Of a stretch of DNA of 39,928 bases, positions 19,954 through 28,783 are shown in pieces. The stretch's first letter is position 1; each line of letters begins with the position of its first letter. Source of the stretch: Gammaproteobacteria bacterium (GTDB lineage: Bacteria > Pseudomonadota > Gammaproteobacteria > UBA6429 > Thiohalophilaceae); NCBI GenBank assembly GCA_029881995.1, contig JAOULO010000029.1, positions 1 to 39,928 on the forward strand, read 5' to 3'. The notes beneath the pieces were generated by a model. The model was given only the letters and a program-made list of their open reading frames with translations, did no database searches and had not been told where the DNA came from. The position numbers were made by a program, and so were the translations under genes.

Positions 19954-20688
19954 GTGGCCTCTTCACGAAACCAGATAACTGAATTCAAACTGGCACCCGG
20001 CCGGGTGCTTGCTAAAAAATATGAAATAATCGATCTGCTTGGTGCTGGTTGGGAAGGCGAAGTCTATCTTATCCGCGAAGTAGCAACGGGTATTGAACGT
20101 ACAGCAAAGCTGTTTTTCCCTCACCGAAACCTTAAAGACAGGTCTGCCCAATTCTATGCAAAAAAGCTGCACACGCTTCGGCATTGCCCCATTGTTATTC
20201 AGTACAGTACCCAGGATACGATAATTTTCAGGAACAATCCTGTCACTGTTTTGATCTCAGAATATGTGGAAGGTGAATTACTTAGCGACTTTATTAACCG
20301 CCAACCTGGTAAACGTCTCACAGCATTTCAGTCTTTGCATTTGCTCCATTCACTGGCAGCAGGTATGGAGTGCATTCATACCATGCGAGAATATCATGGT
20401 GATTTACATTCAGAAAATATCATTGTTCAGCGTTATGGGCTGAGTTTTGATCTGAAGCTTGTAGATATGTTTAACTCAGGTAGCCCCAAGAAACAGAACA
20501 TTCATGATGATACTGTTGATATGGTCCATATATTTTATGAGGCACTGGGTGGGGCCAAGCATTATTCAAAACAGCCCGCTGAAGTTAAACAAATTGTCAA
20601 TGGCCTGAAACGATCACTGATTTTGAAAAAATTCAGAAGTGCGGGACAACTACGGCAATACCTTGAAACCATGCAGTGGTCGGCTTGA
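19954..20688 (+). CDS. Compact Ser/Thr protein kinase-like protein
   Basis: 244 residues, a bare kinase fold with no membrane segment. Glycine loop GAGWEGEVY (30-38), ATP lysine K52 in TAKLF, hinge SEYVEGELL, catalytic loop HGDLHSEN (D150, N155) and metal Asp D171. The last motif is DMF in place of DFG, and HRD is HGD, both seen in atypical but often active kinases. The C-lobe is short. It starts with GTG; no Met occurs before residue ~138. The PP2C phosphatase 36 bp downstream is the natural antagonist, and the FHA proteins are possible readers. Substrate unknown; the adjacent degenerate GGDEF protein is a candidate. Confidence 0.85.
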   Translation: MASSRNQITEFKLAPGRVLAKKYEIIDLLGAGWEGEVYLIREVATGIERTAKLFFPHRNLKDRSAQFYAKKLHTLRHCPIVIQYSTQDTIIFRNNPVTVLISEYVEGELLSDFINRQPGKRLTAFQSLHLLHSLAAGMECIHTMREYHGDLHSENIIVQRYGLSFDLKLVDMFNSGSPKKQNIHDDTVDMVHIFYEALGGAKHYSKQPAEVKQIVNGLKRSLILKKFRSAGQLRQYLETMQWSA

Positions 20689-20724
20689 ATCACGCATATT
20701 ATTTCTGCCTGCACGGATATCATT

Positions 20725-21528
20725 TTGAAGAACATTTACACCTATACACAATCTGAACTTGAAAGTCCTGAGCTTCTGAGCCTTGATTTCGGCAAGGCAG
20801 TTGTTTTTTCCGATAAATCTCCTGAAAAGGACAGCGCCAATGAAGATAGTCTGGCCCTGTTTGAGATTGACAAAAAAACTGCCGTATTTCTGGTCGCCGA
20901 TGGTCTTGGAAGCCTACCCAATGCTGATGCCGCATCTAAACTGGCCATTAGTGCGATACAACGCGCCCTTAAGCAGGCGACGGACAATGACTCCCTTCGT
21001 GAAGCCATTCTGGATGGTTTTGAAAAAGCCAACCAGCAGATACTTGATAAAATGCCTGGTTCAGCAACTACTCTTGTCGCAATTGAATATCAGAATGGTG
21101 AAATACGTTCCTACCATGTTGGCGATTCCATGATTCTGGTGACAGGGCAACGCGGCAAAATCAAACTACAGTCTGTTCCCCATTCTCCCGTAGGCTATGC
21201 CGTTGAATCCGGCATGCTGGATGAAGATGAAGCTGTTCACCATGAGGAGCGGCATATTGTATCAAATGTGGTGGGTTCTGCTGATATGCGTATCGAGCTT
21301 GGCTCGGCAATTAAATTAGCCCAATACGATAGCCTTATTATTTCCAGTGATGGACTGTTCGATAATCTCTACGTTGATGAAATAGTTGATATAGCCAGAA
21401 AAGGAAATATTGAAACAGCTGGCCAGCAACTTCATGAGTTAGCCAGGCAGCGTATGCTATCTCCCAAGGAAGGCTTGCCAAGTCATGCAGATGATCTGAG
21501 TTTTATTCTATTCAGGCCAACAAAGTAA
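20725..21528 (+). CDS. PP2C-type Ser/Thr protein phosphatase
   Basis: 267 residues, cytosolic, metal-dependent phosphatase. Motifs in order: NEDS (39-42), FLVADGLGS with D59, GSATTLVAI, HVGDSMIL, ISSDGLFDNL and a C-terminal DDLSFIL. All metal-binding aspartates are therefore present, although DGLGS replaces the usual DGMGG. It starts with TTG; the next Met is far inside the domain. It is the last gene of the GGDEF-kinase-phosphatase unit and stops exactly where the convergent dehydrogenase stops, without a terminator. It most likely reverses the neighbouring kinase's phosphorylation. Confidence 0.93.
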   Translation: MKNIYTYTQSELESPELLSLDFGKAVVFSDKSPEKDSANEDSLALFEIDKKTAVFLVADGLGSLPNADAASKLAISAIQRALKQATDNDSLREAILDGFEKANQQILDKMPGSATTLVAIEYQNGEIRSYHVGDSMILVTGQRGKIKLQSVPHSPVGYAVESGMLDEDEAVHHEERHIVSNVVGSADMRIELGSAIKLAQYDSLIISSDGLFDNLYVDEIVDIARKGNIETAGQQLHELARQRMLSPKEGLPSHADDLSFILFRPTK

Positions 21529-23687: not shown

Positions 23688-23936
23688 TTAGCTACCCGGT
23701 TTTGGACACTTGGCCATACAATCCGGATAGGCGATATTACATGGCTCGTAACAACTTTCATCCTTCTGCTTGCAGGATGTCGAAGCTTTTTTCCTGCAAT
23801 CTTCATTTTTCTTTCGACATTGTTTTGAGCACTCGACAAACTTATTAATGCTCGACCCCTTTTCCATAGAATCGGCCATTGCAAACTGAAACATCCCCAA
23901 AAACAAGAATAGACTGCTTATCAATATAGATTTCAT
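23688..23936 (-). CDS. Small secreted cysteine-rich protein
   Basis: 82 residues. A signal peptide (about 1-21, ending FAMA|D) precedes a ~60-residue mature chain with eight cysteines in a CxxxC-type rhythm (CSKQC, EDC, TSC, ESC, EPC, PDC, AKC) and many lysines. A strong AGGAGA ribosome-binding site sits 7-8 nt before the ATG. Such chains usually form disulfide knots or bind metal in the periplasm. I do not recognise the family. It is transcribed toward marC with a 26-bp gap, so the two may share a transcript. Confidence 0.75.
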   Translation of the reverse strand: MKSILISSLFLFLGMFQFAMADSMEKGSSINKFVECSKQCRKKNEDCRKKASTSCKQKDESCYEPCNIAYPDCMAKCPKPGS

Positions 23937-24237: not shown

Positions 24238-25251
24238 ATGAATCTGATACGACTGATTTCAGTAGTCAGTATACTGGCCTGCACAGGAAGTCTACAGGCG
24301 GCTAGCAATGATATGAAAGGGCTAGCTTTCTCTAATCCTGCCAAACAGATGAAAATGCCTGCTGGCTGGTCCACCAAGACTGTGCAATATGACAAGCAAA
24401 TTAATAATGCAGATCTGGTTATTTCATTTGGTCAGCAAACCTATCCCGCTCTGCACAAGCTGGTAGAAAATTATGCCAAAGACAATAACATAAATATTGT
24501 CATCCAAAGTGGTACCTGTGGAGTTTCAGCAGGTAAACTTTTACGAAAAACTCTGGACTCTGGCACCTTCTGTTGTCCCCCAAGTGACAGAGATCGCTTA
24601 CCTGGACTTGAATTTCACACCCTGGCGATATCTGCACTTTCTATTTTCGTAAATGAAAAAAATCCACTGCAAAATATTTCTACCACAGAGGCCAGAAAAA
24701 TATTTCAGGGTAAAATCCGAAAGTGGAATGAATTTGCAGTTGCAGATTCATTTAATTCAAATATTCGCCCACACATTAGACTGCATTGTAAAAAGCGCCC
24801 TGGTCACTGGACACTTCTACTTAAAAATCAGGAACAGTTCAGCCCGCTCTTGAAAGAGGTAGGTGTTATCCCCGATCTGGTTGCCAAAGTCGGTCAATTA
24901 GAAAACTCGGTGAGTCTGGAAACACCTTATATGGTCAATCTCTACAGGAAAGAGCCGGTCAAAATGTTAAAGGTTGATGGTCATTCTCCGAAAGATATCG
25001 ACTATGTTGCATCAGGGAAATACCCATTTTACCGAACCTATAATATGACAACCTGGAGTAATGGAGGAAAACAAAAGCAAGCTGTTATAAAACTTATTAC
25101 ATATTTACGCCAGCACATTGAAGATAAGCATCAGCAATATTCTATGGTTCCAGTTTCTAAACTGAAAAAGGCCGGTTGGAAGTTTAAGGGTAGCGAACTC
25201 ATTGCGGAACCTAATGGTAAAAAACTAGCGTATTATCCACCGCAGCATTAA
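24238..25251 (+). CDS. Periplasmic substrate-binding protein of the PstS-like class
   Basis: 337 residues: signal peptide (about 1-21) then a type II periplasmic binding fold. ADLVISFGQQTYPALHKLVENY opens the first lobe, and LSIFVNEKNPLQNISTTEARKIFQGKIRKWNEF is the characteristic hinge region of PstS-like proteins. It has a distinctive cysteine set (C94, C112-C113, C184) around SGTCG and GTFCCPPSDRDRLPGLEFHT, where phosphate binders have Ser/Thr-Asp loops. The ligand is therefore uncertain and metal or disulfide chemistry is possible. No ABC permease or ATPase follows; instead a GGDEF-EAL receptor starts 12 bp later, suggesting a sensing role. Confidence 0.85.
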   Translation: MNLIRLISVVSILACTGSLQAASNDMKGLAFSNPAKQMKMPAGWSTKTVQYDKQINNADLVISFGQQTYPALHKLVENYAKDNNINIVIQSGTCGVSAGKLLRKTLDSGTFCCPPSDRDRLPGLEFHTLAISALSIFVNEKNPLQNISTTEARKIFQGKIRKWNEFAVADSFNSNIRPHIRLHCKKRPGHWTLLLKNQEQFSPLLKEVGVIPDLVAKVGQLENSVSLETPYMVNLYRKEPVKMLKVDGHSPKDIDYVASGKYPFYRTYNMTTWSNGGKQKQAVIKLITYLRQHIEDKHQQYSMVPVSKLKKAGWKFKGSELIAEPNGKKLAYYPPQH

Positions 25252-25263
25252 GTCGTTTTTGTT

Positions 25264-27678
25264 ATGTGGAAAAAATCCGGTCTGACCGGCAAGATGTTAA
25301 TCTATACCGCCAGTATTGGACTGGTGGTATGGTTTATTTCTGATTATTACCAGACAAGAACGCTAAAAGAGATTTTCCACGAGAAACTGCAAAACCGATT
25401 CAGTATTCAGGCCCAGGAACATCGCACACTGTTTGATCGCTACATCAAGATTCATAACCAGGCTGCTAAATTACTCGCAAGTTCTGATTATCTTCACCAT
25501 TACATTGTCGACCAAAAATGGCAGCCAGGCTTTAGTGGAAAATATAAACTTCATGAAGACAGTCCTGAATGGCTACCCAACATTTCTACTCTAAGAAAAT
25601 TCGTATTACCGCGATACACTTTTATCATGGATGTTAATAATAAGGTAAGAGAACTGTATTACTGGAATGGGGTGCTACCACCAAATGAAATTCTACATCC
25701 TGACCCGCTACTGGTTCAGCTATCAGAAAACCAGAGTTATCTGACTACATTAAGTGGCAAACCCTATTTATTTACCTCTGAGCCGATTGTAGCCTACGGA
25801 AAAAGAGTAGGTACACTTGCTATGGCCTCACCTATTGATAGTGATTTCATGATCGAATCACAAATTCTCTCTATCAGTAAATATACGGTAGCTCTATTGG
25901 CTGAAGATGAAGAAACCATACTTGTAAGCAGCGATCCCAAAATGGTTCCTGAAGGCGTCAAAGTATCCGAGCTAAGCAATGTTTATCAAACTATTGGAGA
26001 AGGTTTTTTTGATTATGGATCATCAGATCTGGTAATCAAATGTGTCTCATTCATTCCACTACAGGAAGTACAGGATCTGACTCATGCAGTGTTAGTTAAA
26101 GAACGTCAAATGCGGTCCATCTCCATGGCAACCTATGTTTTGGCATTCATGCTAATAATGTTCTATTTGACAAAACGTCTGTTAAATATGACCCACCGTG
26201 TAGTTGAGTTTTCTGAACGCATGGAAATTCAACAACCCAAAATTGAACAAAAAGATGAGCTCAAGATCCTGGAAGAGCGATTCAAGCTACTCGCGAGCGC
26301 CATTAAAAGTGAAACTGAAGCGCTGGAGTATCAGGCCTCTCATGATCCATTGACTGACTTACCAAACCGGAAAATGCTTAATGAACGTCTGCAAAGCACC
26401 TTACTTCGCAGTAAGGTAAGTCAATTACCTCTGGTACTCATCATCAGCGATCTAAATCACTTCAAGGAAATTAATGATACCCTGGGGCATCATATTGGAG
26501 ATCTTGTCCTGCAACAGGCCGCCGAGCGCTTATACAATACGGTACGGAAAACCGATACAGTAGCCCGTTTAGGTGGTGATGAATTTAGTATCCTGCTACC
26601 GGACACCAATATTGATGAAGCACAACGTATCGCAAGAAATATAACAGAAATTTTCAAAATACCGTTTGTTGCTGAAGGTCATAATCTGAATGTCGGGATC
26701 AGTATTGGTTTAGCCGAGTCTCCAACTCATGGTGATGATGTCAACATCCTGGTGCAAAGGGCAGACGTTGCAATGTATGACGCCAAACGTGGCAAGAAAG
26801 GCTTTGCCGTTTATGATCCTGAACAGGATACACATAACATCAGCAAACTTGAATTAATGTCCGAACTTAGAGAAAGTATTAACAGTCAAAATATTGATAT
26901 CCACTACCAGGCCAAGCAGGATATTATGTCTGGTAAGCTTATCGGAGCTGAGGCACTTCTACGCTGGGTCCACCAGGAGAGAGGTTTAATTCAACCAGAT
27001 GATATTATTCCTTTAGCCGAACAAACAGGCCTGATAAAACCTTTAACGCGCATCATTCTGGACAAAGCCATTCATCAATGTGCTGAATGGCATAAGATTG
27101 GTTACAAGCTAAGCGTTTCAGTCAATGTCTCCGTACACTGCCTTCATGGCACCATGCTTACCAGAGCATTACGAGAGTTTATCAGTAAATATAAGCTGCC
27201 ACCTGAGTACTGTATTCTTGAAATCACCGAAAGCGATATTATGGTTGACCCTATCAGGGCCAAAAATATTCTAATGGAAATTGATTCAATTGGTGCACAT
27301 ATCTCAATTGATGATTTTGGTACCGGTTATTCATCCCTGGCCTACTTAAAGCAACTCCCCGTATCTGAAATAAAGATTGACCGTTCCTTTGTGATGGAAA
27401 TTGAAAATGATGAAAATGACAAGGTCATTATCAGGACGATTATCGATCTTGCCCATAATCTGGGCCTTGATGTTGTTGCCGAAGGTGTTGAGACTGACAC
27501 TGCCCTGGCACTATTGAAAACCCTTGGCTGCAATATTGCACAGGGATATTTTATTGGTCGCCCCGTTTCAGGAGATGATTTTACGGCTAAACTAGGTAAG
27601 CATCCATCATCTATATCATTACAGGATAATAAATCTGATATAATAGAAACCTTTGAGGGTAAGCCCATTAAACCATAG
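25264..27678 (+). CDS. Membrane sensor GGDEF-EAL cyclic-di-GMP enzyme
   Basis: 804 residues. TM1 (~8-26), a ~255-residue periplasmic sensor of double-Cache type, TM2 (~285-303) and a HAMP-like linker lead to GGDEF (~355-515) and EAL (~525-770). RLGGDEF (near 437) is intact with RKTD as the inhibitory site. The EAL half has GAEALLRW (near 560), VNVSVHCL, EITES, DDFGTGYSSLAYL, KIDRSFV, AEGVE and QGYFIGRP, so phosphodiesterase activity is likely. The periplasmic sensor plus the binding protein encoded immediately upstream suggest control of c-di-GMP by the ligand-loaded binding protein. Operon with the next two genes (gaps 24 bp and 1 bp). Confidence 0.95.
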   Translation: MWKKSGLTGKMLIYTASIGLVVWFISDYYQTRTLKEIFHEKLQNRFSIQAQEHRTLFDRYIKIHNQAAKLLASSDYLHHYIVDQKWQPGFSGKYKLHEDSPEWLPNISTLRKFVLPRYTFIMDVNNKVRELYYWNGVLPPNEILHPDPLLVQLSENQSYLTTLSGKPYLFTSEPIVAYGKRVGTLAMASPIDSDFMIESQILSISKYTVALLAEDEETILVSSDPKMVPEGVKVSELSNVYQTIGEGFFDYGSSDLVIKCVSFIPLQEVQDLTHAVLVKERQMRSISMATYVLAFMLIMFYLTKRLLNMTHRVVEFSERMEIQQPKIEQKDELKILEERFKLLASAIKSETEALEYQASHDPLTDLPNRKMLNERLQSTLLRSKVSQLPLVLIISDLNHFKEINDTLGHHIGDLVLQQAAERLYNTVRKTDTVARLGGDEFSILLPDTNIDEAQRIARNITEIFKIPFVAEGHNLNVGISIGLAESPTHGDDVNILVQRADVAMYDAKRGKKGFAVYDPEQDTHNISKLELMSELRESINSQNIDIHYQAKQDIMSGKLIGAEALLRWVHQERGLIQPDDIIPLAEQTGLIKPLTRIILDKAIHQCAEWHKIGYKLSVSVNVSVHCLHGTMLTRALREFISKYKLPPEYCILEITESDIMVDPIRAKNILMEIDSIGAHISIDDFGTGYSSLAYLKQLPVSEIKIDRSFVMEIENDENDKVIIRTIIDLAHNLGLDVVAEGVETDTALALLKTLGCNIAQGYFIGRPVSGDDFTAKLGKHPSSISLQDNKSDIIETFEGKPIKP

Positions 27679-27702
27679 AATACAATAATTTCTCACAAGA
27701 CA

Positions 27703-28257
27703 ATGCCAGTAAAAACTATACTTGCCATACTACTCATCATCTTGGTGATAAGCCCTATTACAATTATCAACCCTGCCTACGCCGGCAACAAAAATCAGTA
27801 CGAATCAGAAAACATACGCATTAGAGTAATACCACGCTCGCCACAACAAATCGCTGCATTCTATGAGGCCCGTGGCTTTCAAAAAAACATGCTGGATAAA
27901 ATCAAGCAATACTGTTTTATCACTATTTATGTTCGAAACAAAGGTAAGCATATAATCTGGCATGATCTAGGAAAATGGACATTTCAGGCAGGAACAAAAA
28001 AAATACAACGCATCGATCGACATCAATTAAAACAAACCTGGCAGAAAATGGGCATTCCCCTTCCCCACCAGTCAACATTTCGCTGGACGCTTTTACCAGA
28101 ACAACTGGACTTTCGCCCTGAAGAAGGTGAAGGTGGCAATATTGTCCTGCCTGCTACAAATGAAAATATCCGTATCACCAGCCAATTTAACTTATATAAA
28201 AATAATTCAGACGATATAGTCAAACTTATTCTCGATAATATCCAGTGCAAAAAATAA
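27703..28257 (+). CDS. Secreted protein of unknown function
   Basis: 184 residues. A signal peptide/hydrophobic helix (about 5-26, ending PAYA|G) precedes a mostly beta mature domain with IRIRVIPRSPQQIAAFYEARGF and two Cys residues (one mid-chain, one in the C-terminal QCKK). The length and pattern suggest a compact periplasmic domain with one disulfide. It lies inside the binding protein/GGDEF-EAL/thioredoxin operon, one base before the TlpA-like gene, so translation is probably coupled. I do not recognise the family. Confidence 0.75.
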   Translation: MPVKTILAILLIILVISPITIINPAYAGNKNQYESENIRIRVIPRSPQQIAAFYEARGFQKNMLDKIKQYCFITIYVRNKGKHIIWHDLGKWTFQAGTKKIQRIDRHQLKQTWQKMGIPLPHQSTFRWTLLPEQLDFRPEEGEGGNIVLPATNENIRITSQFNLYKNNSDDIVKLILDNIQCKK

Positions 28258-28258
28258 T

Positions 28259-28783
28259 ATGACAAAACTGACATATCCAATAATCACAATCTTATTGCTA
28301 ATATCAGCCAATATAGCTGGCAGCCAAACCAACTTACCCAAAGGATTATTGGCCCTCAAACCATTACCAGCACCTACTACCCGCCTGCAGGATATCGATG
28401 GTAAAACATATGACCTGACAGAAGATCGAGGCAGTGTAGTCTTTGTCCACTTCTGGGCAAGTTGGTGTGGTCCTTGCCGTAGAGAAATGCCTGCCATTCA
28501 GAAAATGTGGAATATCATGCAAAAAGAGGGGCTGAAGATTGCTCTTATTAATACTGCCGAAGATGAAGATACGGTATTCAGTTTTCTAGCCAGCTATGCC
28601 CCTGATATCAGGGCCCTGATGGATAAAGATGGCCAGGTCACAGAAAAGTGGCAGCCCAGGGGTTTACCTGCAAGTTATATAATCAATAAAAATGGGTATA
28701 TTATTTATCAGGCCCTTGGCGGTAGGCCCTGGGATGACAAAACCTATCTAAATTTCATTCGACAGATCTTAAAGGAAGATTAA
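28259..28783 (+). CDS. TlpA-like periplasmic thioredoxin
   Basis: 174 residues. A signal anchor (about 1-21) is followed by a TlpA/ResA-type thioredoxin fold with active site WASWCGPC (C70, C73), the expected EMPAIQKMW helix, VTEKWQPRGLPASYIINK (cis-Pro loop) and a terminal helix. Such proteins reduce specific periplasmic disulfides or apocytochrome haem-binding cysteines, or deliver copper. Within this operon the obvious clients are the cysteine-containing binding protein and the secreted protein just upstream; this is inference. No DsbD-type electron donor is in the window. Confidence 0.92.
   Translation: MTKLTYPIITILLLISANIAGSQTNLPKGLLALKPLPAPTTRLQDIDGKTYDLTEDRGSVVFVHFWASWCGPCRREMPAIQKMWNIMQKEGLKIALINTAEDEDTVFSFLASYAPDIRALMDKDGQVTEKWQPRGLPASYIINKNGYIIYQALGGRPWDDKTYLNFIRQILKED

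Follow-up and report, generated by a model that had tools for sequence, protein, structure and literature searches.

The window analysed here is a stretch of 39,928 nucleotides from a Gammaproteobacteria bacterium (GCA_029881995.1, contig JAOULO010000029.1), and it contains a gene for a PstS-like periplasmic binding protein (PBP) that lies immediately before the gene of a membrane receptor with GGDEF and EAL domains. The question raised by this locus is what a binding protein of this type does beside an enzyme of cyclic di-GMP (c-di-GMP) signalling, and whether the two genes that follow, coding for a secreted protein and a thioredoxin, belong to the same system. In our opinion it is very probable that PBP and receptor constitute a two-protein receptor of the LuxP-LuxQ type and that gene 3 and the thioredoxin stand apart as a module of their own. 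The features of the locus are the following:

24238-25251, + strand: PstS-like PBP, 337 amino acids (aa); PF12849 PBP_like_2, E 3.8e-9; N terminus signal-peptide-like by reading
25264-27678, + strand: membrane receptor, 804 aa; GGDEF E 1.5e-47, EAL E 7.3e-68
25345-26118, + strand: periplasmic sensor region of the receptor, residues 28-285; modelled as a LuxQ-like double Cache (AlphaFold2, Foldseek, VIA-align)
26335-26796, + strand: GGDEF domain of the receptor, active site and RxxD site intact
26863-27564, + strand: EAL domain of the receptor, catalytic residues intact
27703-28257, + strand: gene 3, secreted protein without family, 184 aa; judged to lie outside the sensing pair
28259-28783, + strand: gene 4, TlpA/ResA-like thioredoxin, 174 aa; Redoxin/AhpC-TSA, WCGPC; judged to lie outside the sensing pair

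The four genes had been described previously, from the letters and translations alone (hereafter the sequence-only reading), as a run with gaps of 12, 24 and 1 bp, and these distances were confirmed exactly; all four genes are on the + strand. The same reading saw a PstS-like binding protein with no transporter partner and a GGDEF-EAL enzyme with a large periplasmic sensor, and both descriptions held. The PBP belongs to PBP_like_2 and has a PstS-type fold, and no ATP-binding cassette transporter gene, pstCAB included, was present among the four neighbours scanned. The receptor matched GGDEF and EAL, and its periplasmic region of about 260 residues has no named family, with no convincing Pfam family and no convincing match by sequence in the Protein Data Bank. 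Gene 3 gave no convincing family in Pfam or NCBIfam; the product of gene 4 is ResA-like by the profiles of these databases, belongs to the Redoxin/AhpC-TSA family and carries a CxxC motif (WCGPC in the translation).

Co-conservation of PBP and receptor, the lack of which the sequence-only reading had named among its refuting conditions, was found in three genome sets. The first consisted of 58 relatives, in which receptor orthologs were counted only if matched over their whole length and PBP orthologs at E 1e-54 or better (the next match was 6e-29), weaker PBP paralogs in many more genomes being excluded. Receptor orthologs were found in 8 and PBP orthologs in 9 of these relatives, and all nine genomes with either ortholog have both, including G004, where the first 167 receptor residues follow the PBP before the contig ends, and G026, where both genes are at contig ends; in the other seven the two genes are adjacent. 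The second set comprised 369 Gammaproteobacteria, searched with a sensor profile (E 1e-10) and a PBP profile (E 1e-50). The sensor domain was detected in 18 genomes and the PBP in 11, all of them among the 18, and by coordinates 10 of the 13 PBP loci adjoin a sensor gene. The third set was made up of 148 genomes from another phylum, that of the genome of locus L128 (Magnetominusculus in its record); eight of them have the PBP, the same eight have the sensor domain, and each of the eight PBP genes shares its contig with a sensor gene no more than about 1 kb away. Three further genomes, that of L128 included, have 5/5 PBP genes and 5/6 sensor genes paired. One-sided Fisher tests, which ignore shared ancestry and which for the 58 relatives count G004 (cut receptor) and G026 (genes at contig ends), gave p values of 8.6e-17 for the 369 Gammaproteobacteria, 2.1e-13 for the 148 genomes and 9.4e-11 for the 58 relatives. 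A single PBP between two receptors was found in G092, and at L194:3040-9624 one PBP gene likewise stands between two receptors of the same type.

A wider view was obtained from the best 80 of 209 relatives of the PBP in a contig search with an alignment of both PBP subfamilies (named loci). The probe was the motif LHCKxRPGH, which is hence present in the 80 loci by construction, and it must be noted that these loci overlap the contigs of the relatives (e.g., L101, L103, L113, L115, and L117), so that the sets are not independent. According to the records, the lineages with the PBP include Gammaproteobacteria, Nitrospirae, Thermodesulfovibrionia, SAR324, Deferribacteres, Desulfobulbaceae, Magnetococcales, Magnetovibrio, Magnetominusculus, Magnetocorallium, relatives of Thioploca and Beggiatoa, and Chromatiales. 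A profile of the periplasmic regions of the eight receptor orthologs revealed an open reading frame (ORF) with the sensor domain in 73/80 loci, mostly directly behind the PBP; it precedes the PBP in L169 and lies one gene away in L173, and the PBP of L119 and L144 was seen by translation and not by ORF calling. The cytoplasmic parts of 68 of these 73 proteins, the other five being too short at contig ends, were scanned at E 1e-5 and contained HATPase_c (33), GGDEF (27), EAL (21), HisKA_2 (7) and SpoIIE (1). In a quick tree built from 71 sensor domains, of which 62 carried an output label (by profile, motif or Pfam), parsimony gave at least nine output changes, and the well-supported branches alone force 2 to 3 changes per class. 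The output domain is therefore swapped on a conserved PBP-sensor pair, with GGDEF-EAL, GGDEF, histidine kinase and SpoIIE as the alternatives.

With respect to the sensor region, its AlphaFold2 model (69 sequences) reached a predicted local distance difference test (pLDDT) of 91.6 and a predicted template modelling score (pTM) of 0.84. Foldseek placed LuxQ first (2hje, E 2.2e-7), closely followed by other Cache domains, and in VIA-align five LuxQ entries occupied ranks 1-5 with Z of 15.2-15.7, the next entry having 12.4; the LuxQ alignments covered 190-205 residues at a root-mean-square deviation of 3.2-3.8. The region thus models as a LuxQ-like double Cache at the level of fold. Weak CHASE4 matches (E up to 0.1, the best 3.7e-5) were found in 29/69 sensor members, the sensor of the window remaining below the cut-off. 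LuxQ is a receptor that binds periplasmic LuxP, which carries the ligand, and the nearest known fold is therefore that of a receptor dependent on a binding protein. In the enzymatic half, 15 positions of the GGDEF, RxxD and EAL sites, which we take to be of catalytic type, are identical in 8/8 orthologs, and because of this both diguanylate cyclase and phosphodiesterase activities are plausible.

The AlphaFold2 model of the PBP (75 sequences; pLDDT 92.8, pTM 0.87) has a PstS-type fold, with a Z of 24.1 to 4gd5. In PstS the loops GGSGTG, DIGNSD and GSGSR presumably hold the phosphate, and we likewise assume such a role for the Ser-Asp of the second. Profile alignment to the solved PstS 4exl brought the following residues onto these loops:

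24517-24519, + strand: Cys94 in GTCG, aligned to the Ser of the GGSGTG loop; C in 76/76 rows
24571-24576, + strand: vicinal Cys112-Cys113 in FCCPP; CC in 76/76 rows and also in 12/12 rows of both PBP subfamilies
24778-24810, + strand: RLHCKKRPGHW (H183, C184, R187, H190), aligned to the GSGSR loop; invariant in 12/12 rows

Phe111-Cys112 fall on the Ser-Asp of DIGNSD and Cys113 on the next residue, Cys184 on the Ser and Arg187 on the Arg of GSGSR. In place of the Ser, Thr, Asp and Arg ligands of the PstS loops, the aligned positions of the PBP are thus Cys or His, except Arg187. The 12 rows of the two subfamilies were recovered by whole-protein search and not by the RLHC motif. Judging from this alignment, the phosphate pocket seems to have been rebuilt with Cys and His, and the conserved residues would line the cleft.

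Related binding proteins were also observed elsewhere. The genome of the window has on another contig (C16; L038:3217-5724) a second PstS-like protein with the RLHCKxRPGHW signature, 3 bp before a different GGDEF protein, and similar pairs are present in L060, L061, L062, L066, and L067. At the loci of the second PBP subfamily, the frames of the neighbouring GGDEF receptors gave no match to the LuxQ-like sensor profile; these frames are cut by the ends of the loci, and the subfamily was not counted. A paralogous PstS-like group (WAGCGITKKAFM...; L068-L080), with some members in tandem, has a Ser/Gly-rich loop in place of RLHCKxRPGHW in the few members read by eye.

In attention to the co-inheritance across phyla, the LuxQ fold and the intact GGDEF and EAL residues in 8/8 orthologs, the best reading is a PBP that presents its ligand to a receptor of c-di-GMP signalling, and these results support the proposal of the sequence-only reading that the binding protein presents a ligand. 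The secreted PBP would bind its ligand in the cleft corresponding to the phosphate cleft of PstS, apparently lined by Cys and His, and would then dock on the double-Cache domain; docking may in turn shift the balance between the two enzymatic domains, diguanylate cyclase and phosphodiesterase. The contact between the two proteins, the shape of the pocket, the way in which the output changes and the nature of the ligand are what we infer from these data.

Several results weigh against this reading. The likeness to LuxQ is one of fold only, at 13-14% identity, and Foldseek alone fails to separate LuxQ from other Cache domains. Among the 369 Gammaproteobacteria, 7 of the 18 sensor genomes lack a PBP at E 1e-50, four of them having weaker sensor matches (E 1e-28 to 1e-51), and 3 of the 13 PBP loci have no adjacent sensor gene (PBP and sensor are on different contigs in G124 and G068, and one of the two PBP copies of G070 has no sensor nearby). 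Only 11 of the 21 sensor genes of this set adjoin a PBP; a twelfth, in G231, adjoins a short PBP frame of 136 aa, and one sensor gene of G228 reaches the contig end. Similarly, 6/14 sensor genes in the set of 148 genomes have no PBP within about 1 kb. Since only 11/21 sensor genes in the former set and 8/14 in the latter have a PBP alongside, some receptors act without an adjacent one. In the named loci the PBP is without a sensor gene in six of the 80 (L132, L150, L153, L156, L159, and L175), besides L105, whose contig ends inside the PBP; there is little sequence before the PBP in L153 and L159. The distances of PBPs and sensors are correlated (r 0.70 for 68 pairs; r 0.81 for the 53 pairs of L119-L180, with 0/2000 permutations as high), which favours the pairing although it partly reflects shared ancestry; in genomes with several copies the nearest neighbours of PBP and sensor agree clearly in some cases (L146 and L124) and fail to do so in further ones (L145 and L149). 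Finally, no recurrent third gene naming the ligand was found, besides signalling proteins, among the neighbours clustered. As an observation apart, in L150, L153, L156 and L159, from relatives of Thioploca and Beggiatoa, a Sel1-repeat protein takes the place of the receptor behind the PBP (by Pfam for L150 and by similarity for the others).

The rival explanation that survives best is that the Cache domain of the receptor binds a small ligand directly, the PBP being a brake, a sink or a ligand-independent clamp. Many of the solved structural relatives listed for the sensor model are indeed Cache domains in complex with small ligands, and several sensor homologs have no adjacent PBP. However, the PBP is tightly co-inherited and has conserved pocket-type residues, and the nearest fold is that of LuxQ, where it is the partner that carries the ligand. 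We therefore consider direct sensing unlikely.

A phosphate sensor, in which the PBP would still bind phosphate like PstS and report to the c-di-GMP enzyme, is in turn suggested by the PstS-type fold and by weak PstS family scores. In a study of phosphate chemotaxis the binding protein was reportedly PstS. A phosphate-chemotaxis paper is cited in PMC9602780 for chemoreceptors activated by binding proteins. Against this, conserved Cys and His occupy the positions that align to the phosphate loops, the best PstS-family score was 53.7 bits with a cut-off of 206.6, and the neighbours scanned include no transporter genes, all of which makes this explanation very unlikely.

The third alternative is that all four genes form one pathway in which the thioredoxin keeps the cysteines of receptor or PBP reduced, the redox arm of the sequence-only reading. 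It is favoured by the tight spacing in the genome of the window and in G001, and by the conserved Cys of the PBP. Nevertheless, conservation does not extend to the order of the four genes, which was found in one other genome, G001 (the same locus as L031 and L101), whose contig ends inside the thioredoxin. Among the loci examined, gene 3 and the thioredoxin stand behind the receptor only in these two genomes, which belong to one genus, and they are absent there in the 6/6 other orthologous loci readable at this place (G002, of the same genus, G005, G026, G034, G036, and G014). In the named loci gene 3 was found in none except L101. Gene 3 has its own partner, since a thioredoxin lies alongside it in 19/19 loci (E 3e-33 or better; window and G001 included; best 20 loci taken, weaker matches not being in the count), and the 17 others have neither PBP nor receptor within 1.5 kb on each side. 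The four Cys of the PBP are also present in many loci without an adjacent thioredoxin, and the sensor domain has no conserved Cys, no column with seven or more Cys being found among the 69 sequences. Therefore the single unit gives way to two modules, of which PBP and receptor are a real pair, and gene 3 with its thioredoxin looks like a separate pair, a recent neighbour rather than a part of the sensing system. Given that this pair occurs elsewhere without PBP or receptor and is absent behind the receptor in six other loci, the redox arm is most likely a passenger; as part of the system it was rejected, and a four-gene pathway is highly improbable. Across L081-L099, gene 3 keeps its TlpA-like thioredoxin in a stable two-gene module, with surroundings that vary.

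That the PBP is a leftover transport component placed fortuitously before the receptor, as the few loci without an adjacent sensor gene might suggest, has a negligible probability, contradicted as it is by the co-inheritance in three genome sets and by 73/80 loci with output swaps.

The control of kinases, chemoreceptors and c-di-GMP enzymes by binding proteins is well established (PMC9602780; PMC8846402). In the titles and abstract openings of the literature searched, no description of the present PBP-receptor pair was found. The two-protein receptor proposed here resembles LuxP-LuxQ of Vibrio quorum sensing in combining a periplasmic binding protein with a double-Cache membrane receptor, and its sensor model scores highest with LuxQ among the chains aligned. 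It differs in that the binding protein is PstS-like (PBP_like_2) and not LuxP-like, LuxP being, as we assume, of another type, and in that the output is GGDEF-EAL here and a kinase in many other lineages of the pair. NspS-MbaA of Vibrio cholerae also has a binding protein gene beside that of a bifunctional GGDEF-EAL receptor; unlike NspS, which is PotD-like and binds polyamines, the PBP is of PBP_like_2/PstS type with Cys and His at the pocket loops. According to PMC8967002, the binding protein of that system controls the receptor in polyamine sensing, and both c-di-GMP activities are reported for MbaA. In Salmonella, ArtI and the double-Cache domain of STM1987 are both needed for the response of the c-di-GMP enzyme to arginine (PMC8846402), although ArtI is an amino-acid binding protein. 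PstS itself shares the overall fold of the PBP, and differs in its phosphate-loop residues, replaced here, and in the transporter genes, missing among the neighbours scanned. The arsenic oxyanion sensors AioX-AioS, ArrX and ArxX similarly use an oxyanion-type binding protein in signalling. In AioX the pocket Cys106 binds arsenite (PMC5908839), which would make it the nearest precedent for ligand binding by the Cys/His loops; in the PBP, Cys94, Cys112 and Cys184 align to PstS loops in a comparison of sequences only. AioX, however, is PhnD-like with one such Cys and has a kinase as partner, in contrast to a PstS-like protein with four conserved Cys and two His; Pfam assigned the PBP to PBP_like_2, with no phosphonate-binding family at E up to 1. 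The pair also suggests that the design of LuxPQ, in which a double-Cache receptor is served by a binding protein, arose or spread far beyond quorum sensing and that the binding protein had another origin there. The c-di-GMP enzymes with known input are few, and the pair is a defined input device of two proteins and six named pocket-type residues, which make a ligand screen directly possible.

Because of the Cys and His at the loops of the PBP, a soft thiophilic ligand, whether copper or a further soft metal or metalloid or else sulfur in a reduced form, has in our view not far below an even chance. Nitrospirae, Magnetococcales, Magnetovibrio, Desulfobulbaceae, Chromatiales and the relatives of Beggiatoa and Thioploca presumably inhabit steep redox gradients. 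Somewhat more tentatively, we propose a widely dispersed module for sensing a thiophilic ligand or the redox state of thiols. In it, a PstS-derived Cys4/His2 binding protein would work with a LuxQ-like sensor joined to a c-di-GMP enzyme, a histidine kinase or a SpoIIE phosphatase, in magnetotactic lineages and lineages of the sulfur cycle that inhabit such gradients. In L173 the genes of PBP and sensor are separated by one for SCO1/SenC, and L169 has a heavy-metal-ATPase-like gene and COX1 nearby; from this context copper is a weak lead. Directly before the PBP in L180:3294-3836, L193:6004-6492, and L196:3734-4234 there is a membrane protein of 160-180 aa with conserved Cys, relatives of which adjoin SCO1-like genes in 8/23 other loci, their remaining neighbours having been read by eye.

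Rfam at gathering scores gave zero matches in the window and the promoter and terminator scans only chance level, and the single match in PHROGs, a marginal one, linked the PBP with a family of phosphate transporters. Divergent from the PBP, on the - strand at 23688-23936, there is a small secreted protein rich in Cys (82 aa, with 8 Cys by reading); a relative of 40% occupies the corresponding position in L031/L101, and L032/L117 has a match there that is short and weak (18 aa, E 0.04). In addition, a protein-kinase-like gene adjoins a PP2C-like gene at 19954-21528, by reading without family search, and a similar pair is also found near the PBP in L032.

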